A stretch of 44,188 nt of DNA from a virus, in IMG/VR virus record IMGVR_UViG_3300006119_000020, positions 1 through 44,188 of that record. One strand, written 5' to 3'. Shown here in pieces: positions 6,758-44,188 of the stretch. Below the pieces are notes generated by a model. It saw only the letters and a program-made list of their open reading frames with translations. It was not told where the DNA came from and searched no databases. Positions within the stretch are counted from its first letter, which is position 1. Every line of letters starts with the position of its first letter. The translations under genes and the position numbers were made by a program.

Positions 6758-9700
6758 CTAATAGCCCCAATTTTCCATCATGGTCTTTTGTTTCTTAGTC
6801 GGCTTAACATCTGCGCCACTAACCGCCGCAGCTTCGCCTAAATCATACAAAGGCCAAGCAAGGAAATGATTTTGCCCCGGCATCATCTTTCTAAGATTGT
6901 GATACGTCGAGCCAGTAGCGTTTCCTGACGCCGCATCTATCGCAGCATTAATACCATTGCCAACAAGACCAAAGGCTGGACCCATTACAGCTTGAATTTG
7001 TGTCCTATCGCCAGCGCGCATATATGGGCTATCAACGCCAGCCAATCTCCAAGCGTCTAACCTGCCATTTGTTGCAGATGAAAACTGCTTGTTGATGTCG
7101 CTATAGATCGGCGCAAATGACGCAAGATCGGAAACCTCTTTGATGACCTGCATTGGATCATCTGGAAATTCCTCGCCTCGATCCATCTTCTGCAAGTAAA
7201 GGGCTAATGTCCCTAAGCCGCCAGCCCATAAATAACCGCCGAGCAGCTTCATATTAAGATTCTGCATGTTCGACGTAGCCATGATTTCATGTGCGCGCCA
7301 AGCATAGCTTTTGAACTGGAACACAGGAGCGAGCAGTTTGTGGCTTGTCCAGATAGGAGCTGTAGCAACCCCCGGAGTCATAACAATCGTGTTACCCTCA
7401 CGGCGCATCGCCATCTTAAAATAACGCTTGGCTTCTTGCGCCTCTGGCGTCATGTCCCACTTGTCTATATTGGCGAACCTAAAGCCAATGTTGAGATTGT
7501 CGGCAGCATGTTTCTCATACTGGCGACCAATTTCCTTGGCGACATCAACCGGAATGTTGGCGTCAAAAAGTCTTTGCAAGTCCTCTGCGGTATGGGCGCC
7601 ATTAGCGACACGCTGCGCGGCCTCTCCAAAGACGCGCGTTGCCGCAGTAACACCCCATGATTTCATCGCATCGGTCCAAGGCATTAGACCGTTGAGGATC
7701 ATGTAGCGGCTTGTTCCATAGGCAAGTGACTTGGAAAAAGGATTGCCCGGACCCTGCACAATCTCTGGCAACTGAGCCCGCATAAGGGTCATCGCCGTTT
7801 CTATACCAAGACCAAATTCTTTTGCTTGGCGTCGAACTTCAGCGTCATACATCCCCGGCTTCATTTGAGCCAAAGCTCTAATCATTGGGAAGTATTGATG
7901 TTTAAATACGTTGCCAAGACCCCAACGCAATGACGCAGCGCCGCCAGCGTCAACGACTGAGGAGAGAACGGCGCGACCTAGAGACGCAACCGTAGAAATG
8001 CTCTGCATGTCTCTGGCAAAACCAGCGGCCATGTTGGTGGTCATGTCAGGCGTATAGCCATGAATACCGCGCAACCGCTCAGCAACAACAGTCAACTGAT
8101 CTTTGTCGATCTTTTGCTGTGCGGAATAATTATTAATCAACCTCAAATGTTGTTCTTTACTTATTTCACCGTCCTCTAAGCGTTGATTTGCCGCTCTTTT
8201 AAGGTCGAGGTATTCATTATCGATAAGAGACTTTCTCTCAGCGAGATCAAGACTACCCATTTTTTCAGCAAAGATAACGTCAGTTGGAACAGTCCTTGAC
8301 CATGACGCCATAACGTCGCGCATGTCTGACTTTAGAAACTTAGATTTTTGATCGAAAGGAATTGGAACAGTTCTACCCCTAAAGCCGCCGCGCAGCTCTG
8401 GATCTGCTTGATACACAGGGCCATGATTTGCTTTGTCGCCATCATAGTTAAGTCGGTTATTAGATGAATATCTAATATCGTCAGCAATCTCGTTGGCTTG
8501 TTTTAGAAGATTATTGTCTAATTCTTTGCCAGTTAGATCGAGGTCTGTTCTGCGCATGACGCGACGAGCAAAAGATTCCACGGCTTGGTCAGCAGTCGTA
8601 AGACGCTCACCGCGACCTTGATACGTTCCTTCTTCGATCTTTGCGTTACGCTCTGCCTCGGCCTCAGCTCTTGCAGCCAAAGCTGCCTTTGCTTCTTTGT
8701 TGCTTTTGCCAACCCATTCACCGACATGCTTTTCAAGCAACTCGCGCATATTGTTGTTGTGGCCTATTTCCTCGGATAGTTTTCTTTTAGCCTCATCAAC
8801 TGTAGCAATATGGGCCGACTCTTTATTGGCCAATGTATTGCCACGGTTTCTAATCTCAGTCTCAAATACAGCGCCACCCTTGGCGAGATCGCCGCGAGAA
8901 GCCATAAGGTTTGTTATGTCGTTTCTATTCTTTTTGATTGCCTTGGTATAAGGCGCAATCTCTTTTCTGATCTTTGCAGCTTGAGCCCTTAACGCTTTTA
9001 AGGTCGCCGCATCTGGCATTGAATTAGCGAGCTTGGCATTTTCAGACGCCCCTCTAATGCCGCCCTTTGCTGACTCAATTAAAGAGTCAATGTGATTAAC
9101 TAAATCTTCAGCGCCAGCAACATGCTCAAACGCAGACTTGGTGTTTTTAAGTCTAGCGTTTGCATTGATGAGATCGAATATCTGGCTCTCTACTTCTTTG
9201 ATATGAGGTAGACTGTCTTTCTCAGCGCCAATCTTTGTTCTAAGAGCCTCAAGTTTATTTAGCTGCGGCTGAATAGAATCGGTTAATTTCCTGACATTAG
9301 CGCGAGCTGTATCAATCGGCGCGCTTAGATCAGCCGATCGCGCATAGGCAAACTTGTTAAAGCGCCTGACTTCTTCTTGCTGAATAGCGAGCTTGTCGAG
9401 ATTTTCCTGACCACCATCGATGATTTTGTTTAATGTCTCGATAAACTCATCAGATGATTTTAATGCGTTATGATAAAGGCTGATCTTTTCACGCGATGCG
9501 ACCTGAGCCTCATGTTGAGACTTGAGGCTTTTGTAAAACATATCAATAAAACCAGTAGGGTTTTTATCGATTTTTACAGGGTCGTATATGTGCGGCGCAT
9601 ATGTTTCTGCACCCATAGGGCTACCAAGCTCATCAGCTAACAGCTTAGACCCGTCATTCATCGTGACTTTTTGAGCGCGTTGCTGCCAATCACTAAAGAT

Positions 9701-38567: not shown

Positions 38568-38731
38568 CAGCGTTGCCCCTTCTCAAGAGCCGCTTCGATG
38601 CGGGCGATGATCGTATCGATGATGTCGTTGATGAACTCGCGCTCAGACTTGGAGCCAGTAACCTGCCCGCGCTTCTGATCTTCTCTGACTTTTCGCAAAG
38701 CCATTAATTGTTGCGATGGAGAATGTTTCAT
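38567..38731 (-). CDS. small helical protein in replication operon
   Basis: 54 residues, fully helical and charged: MKHSPSQQLMALRKVREDQK, then SEREFINDIIDTIIARIEAA and a basic end. Its ATG overlaps the DnaA-like gene's stop by one base, and its TGA overlaps the next start. The position in a tightly coupled operon supports that it is real. Function unknown. Confidence 0.55.
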   Translation of the reverse strand: MKHSPSQQLMALRKVREDQKRGQVTGSKSEREFINDIIDTIIARIEAALEKGQR

Positions 38732-39273
38732 CACGCGCCCCAATAAACATTGTTGGAGGATGGGGCGAACAAACGATTGCGAAGCAAAAGAATATCGTGC
38801 GCGACCTTTGGGTTATCCAAAATCAAACGCTCGATCTTTCTAATGCCAGATAAAATGGTTGTATGATCGCGCTGAAATGATCGGCCAATCTGGGTTAGAG
38901 ATTGCGTCGAACAACTCTTGCAGAGATAAAACGCCAGATGGCGTGGATAAATAAGATCCGCGCAGCGACGATCGGCTAGAAGATCAATCTCGCTGACGTT
39001 AAAAAAGTCACATATGACTTGAACAACTTGGCGGGTGATTGGCTTGTATGGAACGTGGGGATATTCGCCATACTGATTTTTATAAACGATTTGTTTGGTT
39101 TTCTTGGTTGAAGGAACCTCAACAATCTTTGGCGCTTCAACAACAGCCGGCGGTGCAATTTGAATTGGCTTGACCACAACGGTTGCTACCGTTGTTTTTG
39201 ACATGCCCATTCTTTTCCAACGCTCTTTAGCGGCTTGATGATAATCCTTTTTTGAGATGCTGGTAGACATCAT
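38731..39273 (-). CDS. stand-alone DnaA domain IV (DNA-binding) protein
   Basis: 180 residues with no AAA+ ATPase. After a linker rich in Pro, Val and Lys, the last 100 residues are DnaA domain IV: VICDFFNVSEIDLLADRRCA, IYPRHLAFYLCKSC, LTQIGRSFQRDHTTILSGIR, with RDHTTI at 135-140 matching the DnaA box-reading signature. GAGGGG precedes the ATG pair. It could compete with or recruit host DnaA, or bind the phage origin. Located between RusA and the small replication genes, overlapping the RusA stop. Confidence 0.85.
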   Translation of the reverse strand: MMSTSISKKDYHQAAKERWKRMGMSKTTVATVVVKPIQIAPPAVVEAPKIVEVPSTKKTKQIVYKNQYGEYPHVPYKPITRQVVQVICDFFNVSEIDLLADRRCADLIYPRHLAFYLCKSCSTQSLTQIGRSFQRDHTTILSGIRKIERLILDNPKVAHDILLLRNRLFAPSSNNVYWGA

Positions 39274-39671
39274 TGTTCTAACCCCTCAATCGTTACGATT
39301 GTTTCCGACTTGTGGCCGTATGATTTTCTTGCAATGCTCTCGACCACCTGAGCATCGTCATTCCAGACAACGCCGTTAAGCGCGTCTTCAATGATCTTTT
39401 GAATGTTTGATAAATCTGGGCGCGATACTTTCCAGAACGTCGCGTCTTTTCTTTTTTGCGACCATGACTCAGGACGAGAGTATCGAGCCTCGATCGTCAA
39501 TCTGAGGGCGCCATCAAGCAATCGTTTATTTGTCATCGACGTATGAGCGATGATTTTCACCATCGACATAAATTGAGATTGCTTGGCAGGAGTGAAGCGG
39601 CGTTTACCCATTGAACCAGCGCGGGCAAATGGAACTGGATCTCCGGGGATGACAAAGGAAATAAGCCGCAT
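39270..39671 (-). CDS. RusA-family Holliday junction resolvase
   Basis: 133 residues from the ATG at 39671; a longer open frame adds 44 non-conserved residues. The N-terminus FVIPGDPVPFARAGSMGKRRF and the acidic core RPDLSNIQKIIEDALNGVVW followed by NDDAQVVE (Asp86, Asp96, Asp105/106) are the RusA signature. As a dimer it cuts four-way junctions, here likely debranching recombining or replicating phage DNA before packaging. It is second in the leftward operon, after the Cro-like gene. Confidence 0.88.
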   Translation of the reverse strand: MRLISFVIPGDPVPFARAGSMGKRRFTPAKQSQFMSMVKIIAHTSMTNKRLLDGALRLTIEARYSRPESWSQKRKDATFWKVSRPDLSNIQKIIEDALNGVVWNDDAQVVESIARKSYGHKSETIVTIEGLEQ

Positions 39672-39766
39672 CTTATTCTCTGAAGAAATGCCCCCGATCA
39701 CGACATCGAGCGTGACCGGGGAAGTTGGCGCGGGGTAAAGAAATGGGGAGATCCCCGCGCGGGAGG

Positions 39767-40000
39767 TTAGTCTTTGCGCAAAGACGTTCGCGCTCTTGTC
39801 CATTTGAAAATGGAGAGATCGGGCTCAAAGCCTCGGCGCTTTAATGCGCGGTGTAATTCCGGGTATCGGTGAGCCGGTATGTAACCTTGCTCTTGCCAAT
39901 AAATGATCGCAGTCTCGCGGAGATCGCAGAGTGCAGCGACGGAGCGACGACCGCCTAGCGCGGTAATCAGACCGTCTAAGGTTTTGACTGATTTGCTCAT
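39767..40000 (-). CDS. Cro/YdaS-like small HTH protein
   Basis: 77 residues: VKTLDGLITALGGRRSVAAL and LRETAIIYWQEQGYIPAHRY. The leading LDGLITALGG-x-x-x-VA stretch and the W-x-x-x-G-x-I-P turn are those of YdaS/Cro-type single-domain repressors. It is the first gene after a consensus promoter (40007-40035) that overlaps operator O1, and the predicted transcription start falls at or next to its ATG. It is divergent from the CI-like gene. It should act as the lytic-side repressor. Confidence 0.78.
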   Translation of the reverse strand: MSKSVKTLDGLITALGGRRSVAALCDLRETAIIYWQEQGYIPAHRYPELHRALKRRGFEPDLSIFKWTRARTSLRKD

Positions 40001-40006
40001 TTTCAG

Positions 40007-40035
40007 ACTATTAAGGGGCTCTTAATGCCTGTCAA
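40007..40035 (-). promoter_or_regulatory. leftward early promoter (Cro-like gene)
   Basis: On the minus strand TTGACA (40035-40030), a 17-base spacer, then AATAGT (40012-40007). Operator O1 (40010-40026) lies in the spacer and reaches the -10, so repressor binding should block it. Transcription would begin about 40000-40001, where the ATG starts, so the mRNA may be leaderless. Confidence 0.7.
40010..40026. promoter_or_regulatory. operator O1
   Basis: ATTAAG-GGGCT-CTTAAT, a perfect 6-5-6 palindrome of 17 bp inside the leftward promoter. Best match to the consensus of the five sites. Confidence 0.75.
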
Positions 40036-40040
40036 GAAGC

Positions 40041-40057
40041 ATTAAGGGTGTCTGAAT
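40041..40057. promoter_or_regulatory. operator O2
   Basis: ATTAAG-GGTGT-CTGAAT, one half-site base different from O1. It lies just upstream of the leftward -35 and 31 bp from O1. Confidence 0.7.
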
Positions 40058-40081
40058 AAAATATTTGGGGGTTTCTACTTA

Positions 40082-40110
40082 TTGTGTTAAGAAATTCTTA
40101 ACGCTATACG
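40082..40110 (+). promoter_or_regulatory. promoter of the CI-like repressor gene
   Basis: Weak -35 TTGTGT (40082-40087), 17-base spacer, -10 TATACG (40105-40110). Operator O3 (40086-40102) overlaps spacer and -35, so high repressor or Cro-like protein could shut it off. Confidence 0.45.
40086..40102. promoter_or_regulatory. operator O3
   Basis: GTTAAG-AAATT-CTTAAC, a perfect 17-bp palindrome of the same 6-5-6 design, 45 bp from O2 and within the repressor promoter. Confidence 0.7.
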
Positions 40111-40148
40111 GTTTGTGGAATCTGTTGAGTCAGGGTAATTGTGAGTCT

Positions 40149-40472
40149 ATGGAAAAATCTGATTGGAAATCAGTCGGGGACCGCCTTAAAGCGATACGCT
40201 TGGCCAAGGGATTTACAATCCAAGCGGGCTACGCAAGGCTGATTGGCTACGAGCCGCCGACTTATAATATGTGGGAGCGCGGCAATAGCCCCTTCCCTGT
40301 AGAAGCGGCTTTAAGAGTTTGCACCTTTACTGGCGCAACCCTTGATTACATTTACCGGGATGACATTTCTTCTTTGCCGACGAGTTTGATGACATTGCTC
40401 TCGTCAAACTCAGACGACGATCCCCCGCGCAATGCCCGCGCCTCAACCTCGGCCAAACGTTCGTCCAAATAA
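40149..40472 (+). CDS. CI-like repressor (short XRE type)
   Basis: 107 residues from the ATG at 40149. The helix-turn-helix lies at about 8-65: VGDRLKAIRLAKGFTIQAGY, then LIGYEPPTYNMWERGNSPFP. No LexA/S24 peptidase domain follows, only a short Ser/Arg-rich tail, so SOS-type self-cleavage is not expected. It is divergent from the Cro-like gene with three 17-bp operators between them. Its 3' end overlaps the opposite-strand gene at 40352-40639 by 121 bases. It probably maintains lysogeny. Confidence 0.75.
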   Translation: MEKSDWKSVGDRLKAIRLAKGFTIQAGYARLIGYEPPTYNMWERGNSPFPVEAALRVCTFTGATLDYIYRDDISSLPTSLMTLLSSNSDDDPPRNARASTSAKRSSK

Positions 40473-40639
40473 TCCTGAGTCACTGGCACCCGCCCCTGCG
40501 GGTAAAGTGTGCGATCTTGAAAGAGCCAATAGTCCGATAGCTCACGCATGAGATCGAGAACAAAATAAAGATCCTGAGCGTCTTTTGGCAATTGCGAGGC
40601 TAATTGCATCGCAAGATTGCGTAAGTCCCTGTTACTCAT
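40352..40639 (-). CDS. small protein convergent with and antisense to the repressor end
   Basis: 95 residues: SNRDLRNLAMQLASQLPKDA, QDLYFVLDLMRELSDYWLFQ and VTQDYLDERLAEVEARAL. AGGGGT precedes the ATG at good spacing, and the hydrophobic helix pattern looks protein-like. Its mRNA end is antisense to the last 121 bases of the repressor gene, so expressing it may lower repressor synthesis. It starts 86 bases from the second operator cluster, which may control it. Function unknown; antirepressor-type role is speculation. Confidence 0.6.
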   Translation of the reverse strand: MSNRDLRNLAMQLASQLPKDAQDLYFVLDLMRELSDYWLFQDRTLYPQGRVPVTQDYLDERLAEVEARALRGGSSSEFDESNVIKLVGKEEMSSR

Positions 40640-40748
40640 ACGCTACCCCTACATTTTACATGCAACCAAAAACACAACAGAAGTCATTGAGCAAGATCAA
40701 AACTTAGTCATTGATAAAAAAAATCTTCAGACGTTATTAACAGGGTCC

Positions 40749-40765
40749 ATTAAGAAACTCTGAAT
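40749..40765. promoter_or_regulatory. operator O4
   Basis: ATTAAG-AAACT-CTGAAT, same 17-bp design, upstream of the recombination operon. A degenerate sixth copy (CTTCAG-ACGTT-ATTAAC) lies at 40725-40741. Confidence 0.7.
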
Positions 40766-40771
40766 ATTTTA

Positions 40772-40799
40772 TTGCCTATTAAGAGCCTCTGAATATATT
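40772..40799 (+). promoter_or_regulatory. rightward early promoter (recombination operon)
   Basis: TTGCCT (40772-40777), a 16-base spacer, then TATATT (40794-40799). The spacer coincides with operator O5. An alternative promoter is TTGATA (40711-40716), 17 bases, TTATTA (40734-40739), overlapping the degenerate sixth site. Confidence 0.55.
40778..40794. promoter_or_regulatory. operator O5
   Basis: ATTAAG-AGCCT-CTGAAT, 29 bp from O4, exactly between the -35 and -10 of the rightward promoter. Confidence 0.7.
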
Positions 40800-40831
40800 G
40801 TTGTTCTTCCGATTTGAATGGAGGAACGAAA

Positions 40832-41053
40832 TTGAGGCTGATTAGCACCGCTCACTACATGCTTGAGGGCGATGTCAAAATGAACATCGTCGAATATAGC
40901 GACAACCCAGAAGTTGGCGCTGTGTTCATCAACGTCACCGATAACGGTGGCTACCCAAACATCATCTTCTCAACGACAGAAGTTAATCGGAACAAATGGG
41001 CTCGCGCCATTGCTGCGTTTAACGCAATCATGGGAGAGCTTAATGCTGACTAA
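40832..41053 (+). CDS. first small protein of the recombination operon
   Basis: 73 residues starting at TTG (40832), chosen because GGAGGA lies 6 bases upstream; an upstream TTG at 40814 has no site. The sequence RLISTAHYMLEGDVKMNIVE and IIFSTTEVNRNKWARAIAAF is a small alpha/beta fold without a recognised family. It overlaps the exonuclease gene start by 11 bases. A role as a host nuclease inhibitor (like Gam or Abc) fits the operon position but is not shown by sequence. Confidence 0.6.
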   Translation: MRLISTAHYMLEGDVKMNIVEYSDNPEVGAVFINVTDNGGYPNIIFSTTEVNRNKWARAIAAFNAIMGELNAD

Positions 41054-41345
41054 AGAGCAGATTGAGCGCCGCCGTCATTTCCTTGGCGGCTCTGACGCAA
41101 ACATCCTTGTTGGTGGTGATCCAGAAAAGATCCGCAACCTTTGGTTGTTTAAGCGCGGCCTTATCGACGCTGAAGACTTGTCAAACAATCTCATGGTGGC
41201 GCTTGGCTCATTCACTGAGCCCTTTAATGTCGCTTGGTTTGAGAAGCAAACAGGCAAAACCGTCACCAACCAAGGCGATGAAAGATCATCATTTGATGAG
41301 CCTTTTATGAGCTGCACATTAGACGGGATGGTTGACGATGAGTAA
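41043..41345 (+). CDS. YqaJ-type exonuclease, N-terminal half
   Basis: 100 residues, the first half of a YqaJ/lambda-Exo-like recombinase nuclease: RRRHFLGGSDANILVGGDPE, then LWLFKRGLIDAEDLSNNL, ALGSFTEPFNVAWFEKQTG with Glu59, and CTLDGMVDDE with Asp94. The frame stops right after the LDG motif. The catalytic Glu-x-Lys strand is in the next ORF (41338-41829), overlapping by 8 bases (ATGAGTAA). GGGAGAGCTTA precedes the ATG. The nuclease would resect ends for the ERF annealase. Confidence 0.8.
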   Translation: MLTKEQIERRRHFLGGSDANILVGGDPEKIRNLWLFKRGLIDAEDLSNNLMVALGSFTEPFNVAWFEKQTGKTVTNQGDERSSFDEPFMSCTLDGMVDDE

Positions 41346-41829
41346 GTGGGTCTTTGAAGCAAAGCATGTCAATGCTTTTGCCAAGCCAGAAGAAATACAA
41401 GAGCGTTATTACCCGCAGCTCCAACACAATATCTATGTGACTGGCGCTGACGGTGCATATCTCTCCGTCATTTACGGCAACCATAAATGGGAAGTTTATC
41501 AGATCCCACGCGATGATGGTTATATCACAGGGCTTATCGGCGTTGAGCGTCAGTTCTGGCGTTGCGTAGAAACAGGTGACGAGCCTGTGCCAGTTGAGCC
41601 ACCAAAGGCCAACGTCGAAGCTGTGCGCAAAGTTGATATGAGCGACAGCAATTCATGGGCTGAACACGCAAACGTATGGCTCGCCAATAAAGGCTACGCC
41701 AAAGCGTTTGAAACATCCGTCAAAGAGATCAAGGCGCTTATCGAGGAAGATGTTGCCGAGGCTTTTGGCCACGGCATTAAAGCATCACGTTCAAAGAGCG
41801 GCGCTATAACAATCAGAGAGTCAAAATGA
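41338..41829 (+). CDS. YqaJ-type exonuclease, C-terminal half
   Basis: 163 residues. It begins MSKWVFEAKHVNAFAK with the PD-(D/E)XK strand Glu7-x-Lys9, then YYPQLQHNIYVTGADGAYLS and YGNHKWEVYQI, IGVERQFWRCVETGDEPVP, as in the second half of YqaJ nucleases. The remaining 80 residues are a helical extension. Together with the upstream ORF it makes a complete YqaJ protein; alone it lacks the Asp of the active site. It may be made by re-initiation at ATGAGTAA, or the gene may be broken by a one-base change or error. Confidence 0.8.
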   Translation: MSKWVFEAKHVNAFAKPEEIQERYYPQLQHNIYVTGADGAYLSVIYGNHKWEVYQIPRDDGYITGLIGVERQFWRCVETGDEPVPVEPPKANVEAVRKVDMSDSNSWAEHANVWLANKGYAKAFETSVKEIKALIEEDVAEAFGHGIKASRSKSGAITIRESK

Positions 41830-42470
41830 CTGAGGCCATAAAAAATTTTTACACATGTAAGAGAGAAGTTTTGATGGTTTTAACCAACCTTCATACGGAT
41901 AAAAAAGGCGCTTATAAAAACGCCTATTCTTCTCTGGCAAACACGCTTGAAAGTATCATCAAACTCTACGCCGATCATCACTTGGTATTTTCACAATCAA
42001 CTTTTGTTGAGGGCGAACTTGTTCAATTAAAAACATCTCTGACATGCGACCTCACTGGCGAGAGTGAGGAATGTATCATGCCAGTAGCGCGGTTTCCTTT
42101 GCCTGACAGTCAGAAATTCGGCAGCGCATTATCATATGCGCGCCGCTTCTCGATGCAGACGCTTGGCCTTGTCGCGCCAGATGAAACGCTGGAGGACGAT
42201 GGCGAAGCAGTTAAGGGCATAGCTATTCCAGCGCCTAAGCCGCCAAAGCCTAAAGAGGAACCAAAGGCTGAGCCAGTAATTCCAATGACGGAGGAGGAAT
42301 CTTCCGAGGCTCGTAAAAAATATCTTGCACAACTGGCGCGCATAACAACGCGCGAACAGCTCAAGGTTTGGGCGAAAGACACAAAGCAAGAGCGTGATCG
42401 CATGGACGTTGCTGACCAAGCAGCGATCAGAACTGAGTTCAACAATATCGATACAGATTTGAAAGGATAA
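41826..42470 (+). CDS. erf: ERF-family single-strand annealing protein
   Basis: 214 residues. The ERF core is seen in KNAYSSLANTLESIIKLYAD and the signature KFGSALSYARRFSMQTLGLV with APDETLEDDG (about residues 98-125), matching the G-x-A-x-x-Y-A-R-R-Y motif and acidic DDG of P22 Erf relatives. The C-terminal 85 residues are a Pro/Lys linker and a helical tail. It overlaps the nuclease by ATGA. It would anneal the single strands made by the YqaJ nuclease, for genome circularisation or recombination-driven replication. Confidence 0.88.
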   Translation: MTEAIKNFYTCKREVLMVLTNLHTDKKGAYKNAYSSLANTLESIIKLYADHHLVFSQSTFVEGELVQLKTSLTCDLTGESEECIMPVARFPLPDSQKFGSALSYARRFSMQTLGLVAPDETLEDDGEAVKGIAIPAPKPPKPKEEPKAEPVIPMTEEESSEARKKYLAQLARITTREQLKVWAKDTKQERDRMDVADQAAIRTEFNNIDTDLKG

Positions 42471-43574: not shown

Positions 43575-43583
43575 TTGAGATGG

Positions 43584-43611
43584 GCTGCGCCGGGAAACTG
43601 GCGCAGCTTTT
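43584..43611 (+). terminator. rho-independent terminator of the recombination operon
   Basis: GCTGCGCC (43584-43591) and GGCGCAGC (43600-43607) form a perfect 8-bp GC-rich stem with an 8-base loop, followed by TTTT. It lies 10 bases after the last stop codon and ends 4 bases before the pentamer array. Confidence 0.9.
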
Positions 43612-43614
43612 ATG

Positions 43615-44188
43615 CGCGGCAGGTGAGGTGAGGTTGGGACAGGACCGGAGACGCAAGGCAGGAAGGGCTACTTCTGGAAACATTAGGCTAGGCAAGGCTG
43701 GATAGGAAAGGTCTGGTTTGGCGCGTAGAGGCGCGGCGCGGAGAGGCAGGAGTGGGGTGGCTAGGTGTGGCGCGGAGCGCAGAGGCGGGTTGCGGCAAGG
43801 CAGGAAAGGTGGGGCGAGGAATGTTCCGGCGAGCAACGGATTGGCGCGGCAGGAAAGGTGGGGCGAGGACAAGCTTGGAAAGGTGCGGCTGGGTTTGGCG
43901 AGGCAGGAATGGAAGGGCGAGGTTTGGTGCAAAAAGGTAATGCGGGGCGCGGCAGGAATGGTGAGGCGAGGAATGGCAGGGAAAGGCTCGGCGCGGCAGG
44001 AGGGGTGAGGCGAGGAATTACGGGGAGTGGAAATGCCAGGCGAGGCAGGAATGGAAAGGTATTGCGGGGTGAGGACGGGAACGTTCTGGCGTGGCCCGGA
44101 GAGGCAAGGCAGGAAAGGCATGGCGGGGTATGGTCGGGAACGACATGGCATGTTCTGGCGAGGCGAGGCAGGAGCGGTGTGGATGGGT
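43615..44188. repeat. NNNGG pentamer array with CAGG punctuation
   Basis: From the first cgcgg (43615) to the window end the plus strand can be read as consecutive 5-base words, 87 of 104 ending in GG. Frame is shifted by a 4-base word CAGG (once CTGG) at 43620, 43659, 43698, 43747, 43801, 43850, 43904, 43953, 43997, 44046, 44110 and 44169. Spacings are 39, 39, 49, 54, 49, 54, 49, 44, 49, 64, 59, all equal to 4 modulo 5. In units five to nine the order after CAGG is similar (aaagg/aatgg, tgggg/tgagg, then cgagg), and most units end cgcgg, cgagg or caagg. No gene fits; a long minus-strand open frame here is a by-product. It continues beyond the window. Confidence 0.92.

Follow-up and report, generated by a model that had tools for sequence, protein, structure and literature searches.

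The window analysed here is an entire virus record of 44,188 bases. Its immunity locus, very probably one by the evidence below, has a small Cro-like gene heading a leftward operon, a divergent gene for an XRE-family repressor, a gene convergent with and overlapping the latter, and a rightward operon coding for recombination proteins (Table 1). Missing from the record are 1,928 bp by which the near-identical contig L010 (positions 7363-9290) connects its end (44188) to its start (1). This missing segment encodes a tyrosine integrase (PF00589, 2e-9) and two further ORFs. The phage is thus temperate, and an integrase is found in all five relatives tested. Its host belongs probably to the Alphaproteobacteria, a class taken from the relatives.

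Table 1. Features of the putative immunity locus in the window, with the LexA boxes of its relatives.
Feature	Position	Strand	Remarks
Leftward operon: RusA resolvase and DnaA C-terminal-domain protein	38731..39803	-	profile matches
Cro-like protein, 77 aa	39767..40000	-	resembles Xfaso 1 Cro and, weakly, YdaS; opens the leftward operon
Leftward early promoter TTGACA-17-AATAGT	40007..40035	-	promoter scan
O1 ATTAAGGGGCTCTTAAT	40010..40026	.	perfect dyad ATTAAG-N5-CTTAAT; under leftward promoter; perfect TTAA-N7-TTAA CtrA-type box
O2 ATTAAGGGTGTCTGAAT	40041..40057	+	31 bp from O1; in L055-L057 the second site is at 29 bp
Candidate repressor promoter TTGTGT (40082)-17-TATACG (40105)	40082..40110	+	read from sequence; overlaps O3
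O3 GTTAAGAAATTCTTAAC	40086..40102	.	perfect dyad GTTAAG-N5-CTTAAC; 45 bp from O2; perfect CtrA-type box
XRE-family repressor, 107 aa	40149..40472	+	HTH_3 3e-5; phage repressor PHROGs 4e-8
Convergent gene, 95 aa	40352..40639	-	shares 121 bp with the repressor 3' end; conserved helical family
O4 ATTAAGAAACTCTGAAT	40749..40765	+	starts 29 bp from O5
Rightward early promoter TTGCCT-16-TATATT	40772..40799	+	promoter scan
O5 ATTAAGAGCCTCTGAAT	40778..40794	+	exactly fills spacer of rightward promoter; same position in most relatives
First rightward-operon gene	40832..41053	+	TTG start after GGAGG
YqaJ/RecE-like exonuclease (two overlapping frames) and ERF-type annealing protein	41043..42470	+	profile matches
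LexA boxes in relatives	L009:4230, L029:3571, L053:3431, L054:1063, L055:3474, L056:3447, L057:3448, L024:3356, L025:2428		exact GTTCN7GTTC

The Cro-like protein matches the Cro protein of Xfaso 1 (3bd1), both by profile (E 8.8e-5) and as top fold match. Its hit to the YdaS profile (7.6e-4, 19.7 bits) is under the curated cut-off of 30, and all four aligned members match this profile weakly. Profile searches with the repressor match the helix-turn-helix (HTH) alone and reveal no S24 peptidase domain, the module of oligomerisation and self-cleavage, indicating a protein that is lambda-like in function and not a member of the lambda CI family. No YdaT/CII-like gene was recognised in the window. 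In the rightward operon the exonuclease is encoded by two frames (41043-41345 and 41332-41829) whose stop and ATG overlap at GATGAGTAAG, apparently as in L058 (about 595-894); it is a single frame in L029 (3991-4776), whereas in L009 (5089-6125) an additional ORF interrupts it. The end of this operon (about 43580-44150) has purine-rich repeats and low-complexity Gly/Arg-rich frames.

An earlier note on this DNA had proposed five 17-bp operators, O1 to O5, of the form RTTAAG-N5-CTKAAY. Each of them fits this pattern exactly at the positions of Table 1, and the phage-wide scan for the consensus that the note suggested found no exact match elsewhere: the whole record holds five, against 0.02 expected from dinucleotide shuffles and none for the reversed control pattern. 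All five lie inside 785 bp around the repressor gene and are present in near-identical contigs; the missing 1,928 bp contain no match. The placement of O1 and O5 within the early promoters also holds, O1 taking up 14 of the 17 bases of the leftward spacer plus half of the leftward -10 element and O5 occupying the rightward spacer from end to end. The position given to O3 inside the repressor promoter stands in part. It overlaps the best candidate available, but this is a weak promoter with 7 of 12 consensus matches that is absent from the promoter-scan output, and O3 is a plausible, weak operator for repressor expression. Since only 6 nt separate the leftward -10 from the ATG of the Cro-like gene, the mRNA of the latter should be leaderless. 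A sixth site claimed at 40725 has two mismatches, a quality for which 19 matches are expected in the window; no relative has a matching third right-hand site, and this operator was dropped as unsupported.

Repressor searches provided relatives from IMG/VR viral contigs, bacterial genomes and named phages. The bacterial-genome scan gave no relative with two repressors as query, and found them with a four-repressor alignment. Fifteen loci were studied in detail: L009, L017, L029, L052/L058 (two ends of one contig), L053-L057, L047-L049 and L060-L062. Their common gene order comprises a Cro-like or other small gene, the divergent small XRE repressor, usually a small convergent gene, and the rightward promoter. 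All 15 carry a 17-bp dyad of 6-5-6 architecture at the leftward promoter with copies at the right end, where the site pair has starts 29-32 bp apart in every relative (30 bp in L058). The right copy agrees with the left one at 12 of 12 arm positions in L017, L029, L053 and L054. A scan of ten lineages showed that copies of each leftward-promoter dyad, the best ones included, cluster in the two control regions of the locus; weak second and third sites, with three mismatches, tie with background. Several left-hand second and third sites are such poor matches (three mismatches), and site choice was partly by eye, so that the left spacings are read cautiously: 29 and 44 bp in L055-L057, where the counterpart of O3 is a weak third site, close to 31 and 45 bp in the window, and 25 and 26 bp in L047, L049 and L061. 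The distance from the -10 to the Cro-like ATG is 5-7 nt in the relatives examined for it, making the leaderless mRNA a conserved prediction. The dyad itself differs among lineages: TTAAG in the window, CCAC, CCAA, CCTAA, AACAA, TCGAA or TTCAC in others. The comparison marks the locus as a genuine immunity region whose layout is kept, with the operator code alone apparently altered between groups.

The operator code changes together with the repressor. Differences in its recognition helix correlate with operator differences in a Mantel test that ignores shared ancestry (r 0.67, p 0.0002, ten loci with near-duplicates included). For seven non-redundant loci the same test gives r 0.32 (p 0.09) with the whole helix, and r 0.64 (p 0.04) when two contact-like helix residues are compared with the operator core. 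The helix YNNWETG goes with CCAC operators in L009, L029 and the bacterial loci L047-L049, the last three examined after the Mantel test.

We favour the hypothesis, which we hold to be very probable, that the region works like the lambda OR/OL switch in a temperate phage. The lambda-like logic proposed in the earlier note, with one operator family of non-lambda sequence at both early promoters, agrees well with the same layout and geometry in relatives that have different dyads, and with a temperate phage. A regulator pair of this type is established in CP-933P (PMC8630535). Dimers of the XRE repressor would occupy the 17-bp dyads. Bound to O1, together with O2, they would cover the leftward promoter and silence the Cro-like gene along with the replication/resolvase operon; bound to O5, together with O4, they would cover the rightward promoter and silence the exonuclease/ERF operon. 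The starts of O4 and O5 are 29 bp apart, near three helical turns, so that two dimers could bind cooperatively. Looping by octamers as in lambda has no evident basis because the repressor is HTH-only. O3, near the repressor gene, could expose this gene to regulation by the repressor, by the Cro-like protein or by both. The Cro-like protein, probably translated from a leaderless transcript of the leftward promoter, would recognise these dyads too and favour the lytic course. Which protein binds, in what order the sites are occupied and how cooperatively is what we infer from the sites, promoter-like elements, gene order and geometry visible in the DNA. Counting against this hypothesis are the HTH-only repressor, the weak repressor promoter, the poor second and third left-hand sites of several relatives, and the sequences of O1 and O3, which suit CtrA boxes just as well.

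The convergent gene may bring a further input in part of the family. GTTCN7GTTC is the LexA box of alphaproteobacteria. It is found exactly upstream of the convergent gene in seven relatives (L009, L029, L053-L057) and in the same area of two more distant loci (L024 and L025); in the 56.7 kb of these nine loci the exact box occurs 11 times, where 1.7 occurrences are expected. The window has no GTTCN7GTTC upstream of its convergent gene, whether exact or with one mismatch, and no other LexA box type better than two mismatches. The box is also absent from the sister group of the window (L015, L017, L018) and from L052/L058, in which no convergent gene was found. The arrangement suggests for the box-bearing relatives, not for the window, an SOS induction without repressor cleavage, mediated by a convergent antirepressor or by an antisense transcript. 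This hints at how phages with an uncleavable repressor could still answer DNA damage. The convergent protein has no Pfam or PHROG match and none in named phages, and its structure model is of low confidence (mean pLDDT 64). In two Bradyrhizobium phages (L060:1961-2548 and L062:1928-2563) it keeps the helical core (LALQLAIQLP / LELAIQLP) and runs on into extended hydrophobic segments, which may make it a membrane-bound form. A second group of relatives has an unlike small protein (DRRLDRMIEIA...MGRC) in this convergent position: L024 (3162-3353), L061 (1908-2090) and, right of the repressor, L047 and L049.

O1 and O3 are the sole exact matches in the window to TTAA-N7-TTAA, the box of the host cell-cycle regulator CtrA, a count that is unremarkable window-wide, where 0.83 are expected, although both lie in this locus; O2, O4 and O5 read TTAA-N7-TGAA and are not such boxes. 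Control of alphaproteobacterial phage promoters by CtrA through this motif was shown experimentally (PMC9437464). An exact box is also kept 14-43 bp before the repressor start in L009, L055, L056 and L057, whose operators are unrelated, and is absent there in L017, L052 and L054. All five sites could be phage operators of which O1 and O3 are bound by CtrA as well, coupling lysogeny to the host cell cycle. The two exact boxes, the experimental precedent and the boxes of the relatives speak for this coupling, as does the position of O3, since several relatives have a separate CtrA-type box at their repressor promoter. Yet the match may be an accident of TTAAG specificity in this lineage, the boxes of L055-L057 represent a single event and three relatives have none, so that we regard the dual use of O1 and O3 as possible but rather unlikely. 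It raises nonetheless a testable link between lysogeny and a cell-cycle regulator. Doubtful to a greater degree is a combination of three inputs, with the repressor and Cro on all dyads, CtrA on O1 and O3, and LexA via the convergent gene, the last in the family and not in the window. That O1 to O5 are CtrA boxes and nothing else, timing the phage early genes, is very unlikely. The same boxes and precedent can be invoked for it, but it leaves O2, O4 and O5 unexplained, it does not require the G and C that stand beside the TTAA halves in five of five sites, and the corresponding positions in relatives are non-CtrA dyads that track the repressor helix. Its exact boxes are moreover close in number to chance expectation, and the host class is deduced from the relatives.

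The dyads might instead be recognised solely by the Cro-like protein, the XRE protein acting elsewhere, as the start of the Cro-like gene directly at O1 and the binding of Cro proteins to such dyads could suggest. Operator changes track the Cro-like helix less well than the repressor helix, however (r 0.49 versus 0.67 for ten loci, 0.15 versus 0.32 for the non-redundant ones), and in prophage CP-933P the region is a target of repressor and Cro analogue alike (PMC8630535), which makes this alternative highly improbable. Outside this phage the paired-operator pattern is seen in seven viral contigs (L030-L034, L036 and L039): L030 and L031 were rejected as repressor loci on close reading, L033 and L034 have the sites of L031, and L032, L036 and L039 were examined at the sites alone. 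These contigs, apparently not repressor loci, make it barely credible that O1 to O5 are replication iterons, terminators or AT-rich dyads arisen by chance, against the 0.02 matches expected, the location of sites on two promoters and a layout conserved while its sequence changes.

The immunity switch favoured here would belong to a family of phage switches that is uncharacterised in the open-access literature searched, with a fixed map and spacing and with co-changing operator and repressor helix. Immunity groups might then be predictable from sequence alone.

In lambda the repressor gene lies between two operator groups that each overlie an early promoter; a Cro-type gene diverges from it in one operon, and the other operon holds recombination genes. 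The window shares these bipartite groups on early promoters, the divergent Cro-type gene and the recombination operon, in a mirrored map where O1-O3, on the leftward cro side, are the equivalent of OR, and O4-O5, next to the recombination genes, that of OL. It differs by its three plus two sites of 17 bp (6-5-6), by a repressor without cleavage/oligomerisation domain, by a predicted leaderless mRNA for the Cro-like protein and not for the repressor, and by a convergent gene that takes the place of rexAB. LexA-controlled antirepressors of non-cleavable repressors are known in 186 (Tum), the Gifsy phages and N15 (AntC). The relatives have likewise a small gene with a LexA box and a repressor without cleavage domain; they differ in that the convergent protein has no family match and that its gene is convergent with, and overlaps, that of the repressor, while the window has no LexA box. 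TTAA-N7-TTAA boxes in the early regulatory region are a trait shared with CtrA-regulated alphaproteobacterial phages, whose box clusters are read by the host protein (PMC9437464); in the window two of five sites fit such boxes, whereas a phage repressor explains five of five. The Bradyrhizobium phages ppBeUSDA76-1 and ppBdUSDA122-1 and EBPR podovirus 2 share the divergent small gene, the HTH regulator, the overlapping convergent gene and dyads at both ends, with the right pair 31-32 bp apart. Their operators, TTCAC, TTACAC or ATCCAC, are unannotated in the records, and the convergent protein of the Bradyrhizobium phages has an added, apparently membrane-spanning region.

The closest characterised system is PaaR2-YdaS-YdaT of CP-933P from E. 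coli O157:H7, in which PaaR2 is a CI-like protein without peptidase motif and YdaS the Cro analogue (PMC8630535). One set of palindromes lies there on the PR/PRM side and another at PL, and each of the two regulators represses both promoters (PMC8630535). Each palindrome spans 18 bp, with GTTTAGTAA as the half-site consensus, and the leaderless repressor gene is followed by toxin-antitoxin genes (PMC8630535). Common to both systems are a repressor without peptidase motif, a gene for a Cro analogue and palindromic sites at both promoter regions. The leaderless gene is that of the repressor in CP-933P and, by prediction, the Cro-like gene here, and sites are of 18 versus 17 bp. The present family fits a system of the CP-933P kind with its own operators, its convergent gene and a predicted leaderless Cro-like gene.
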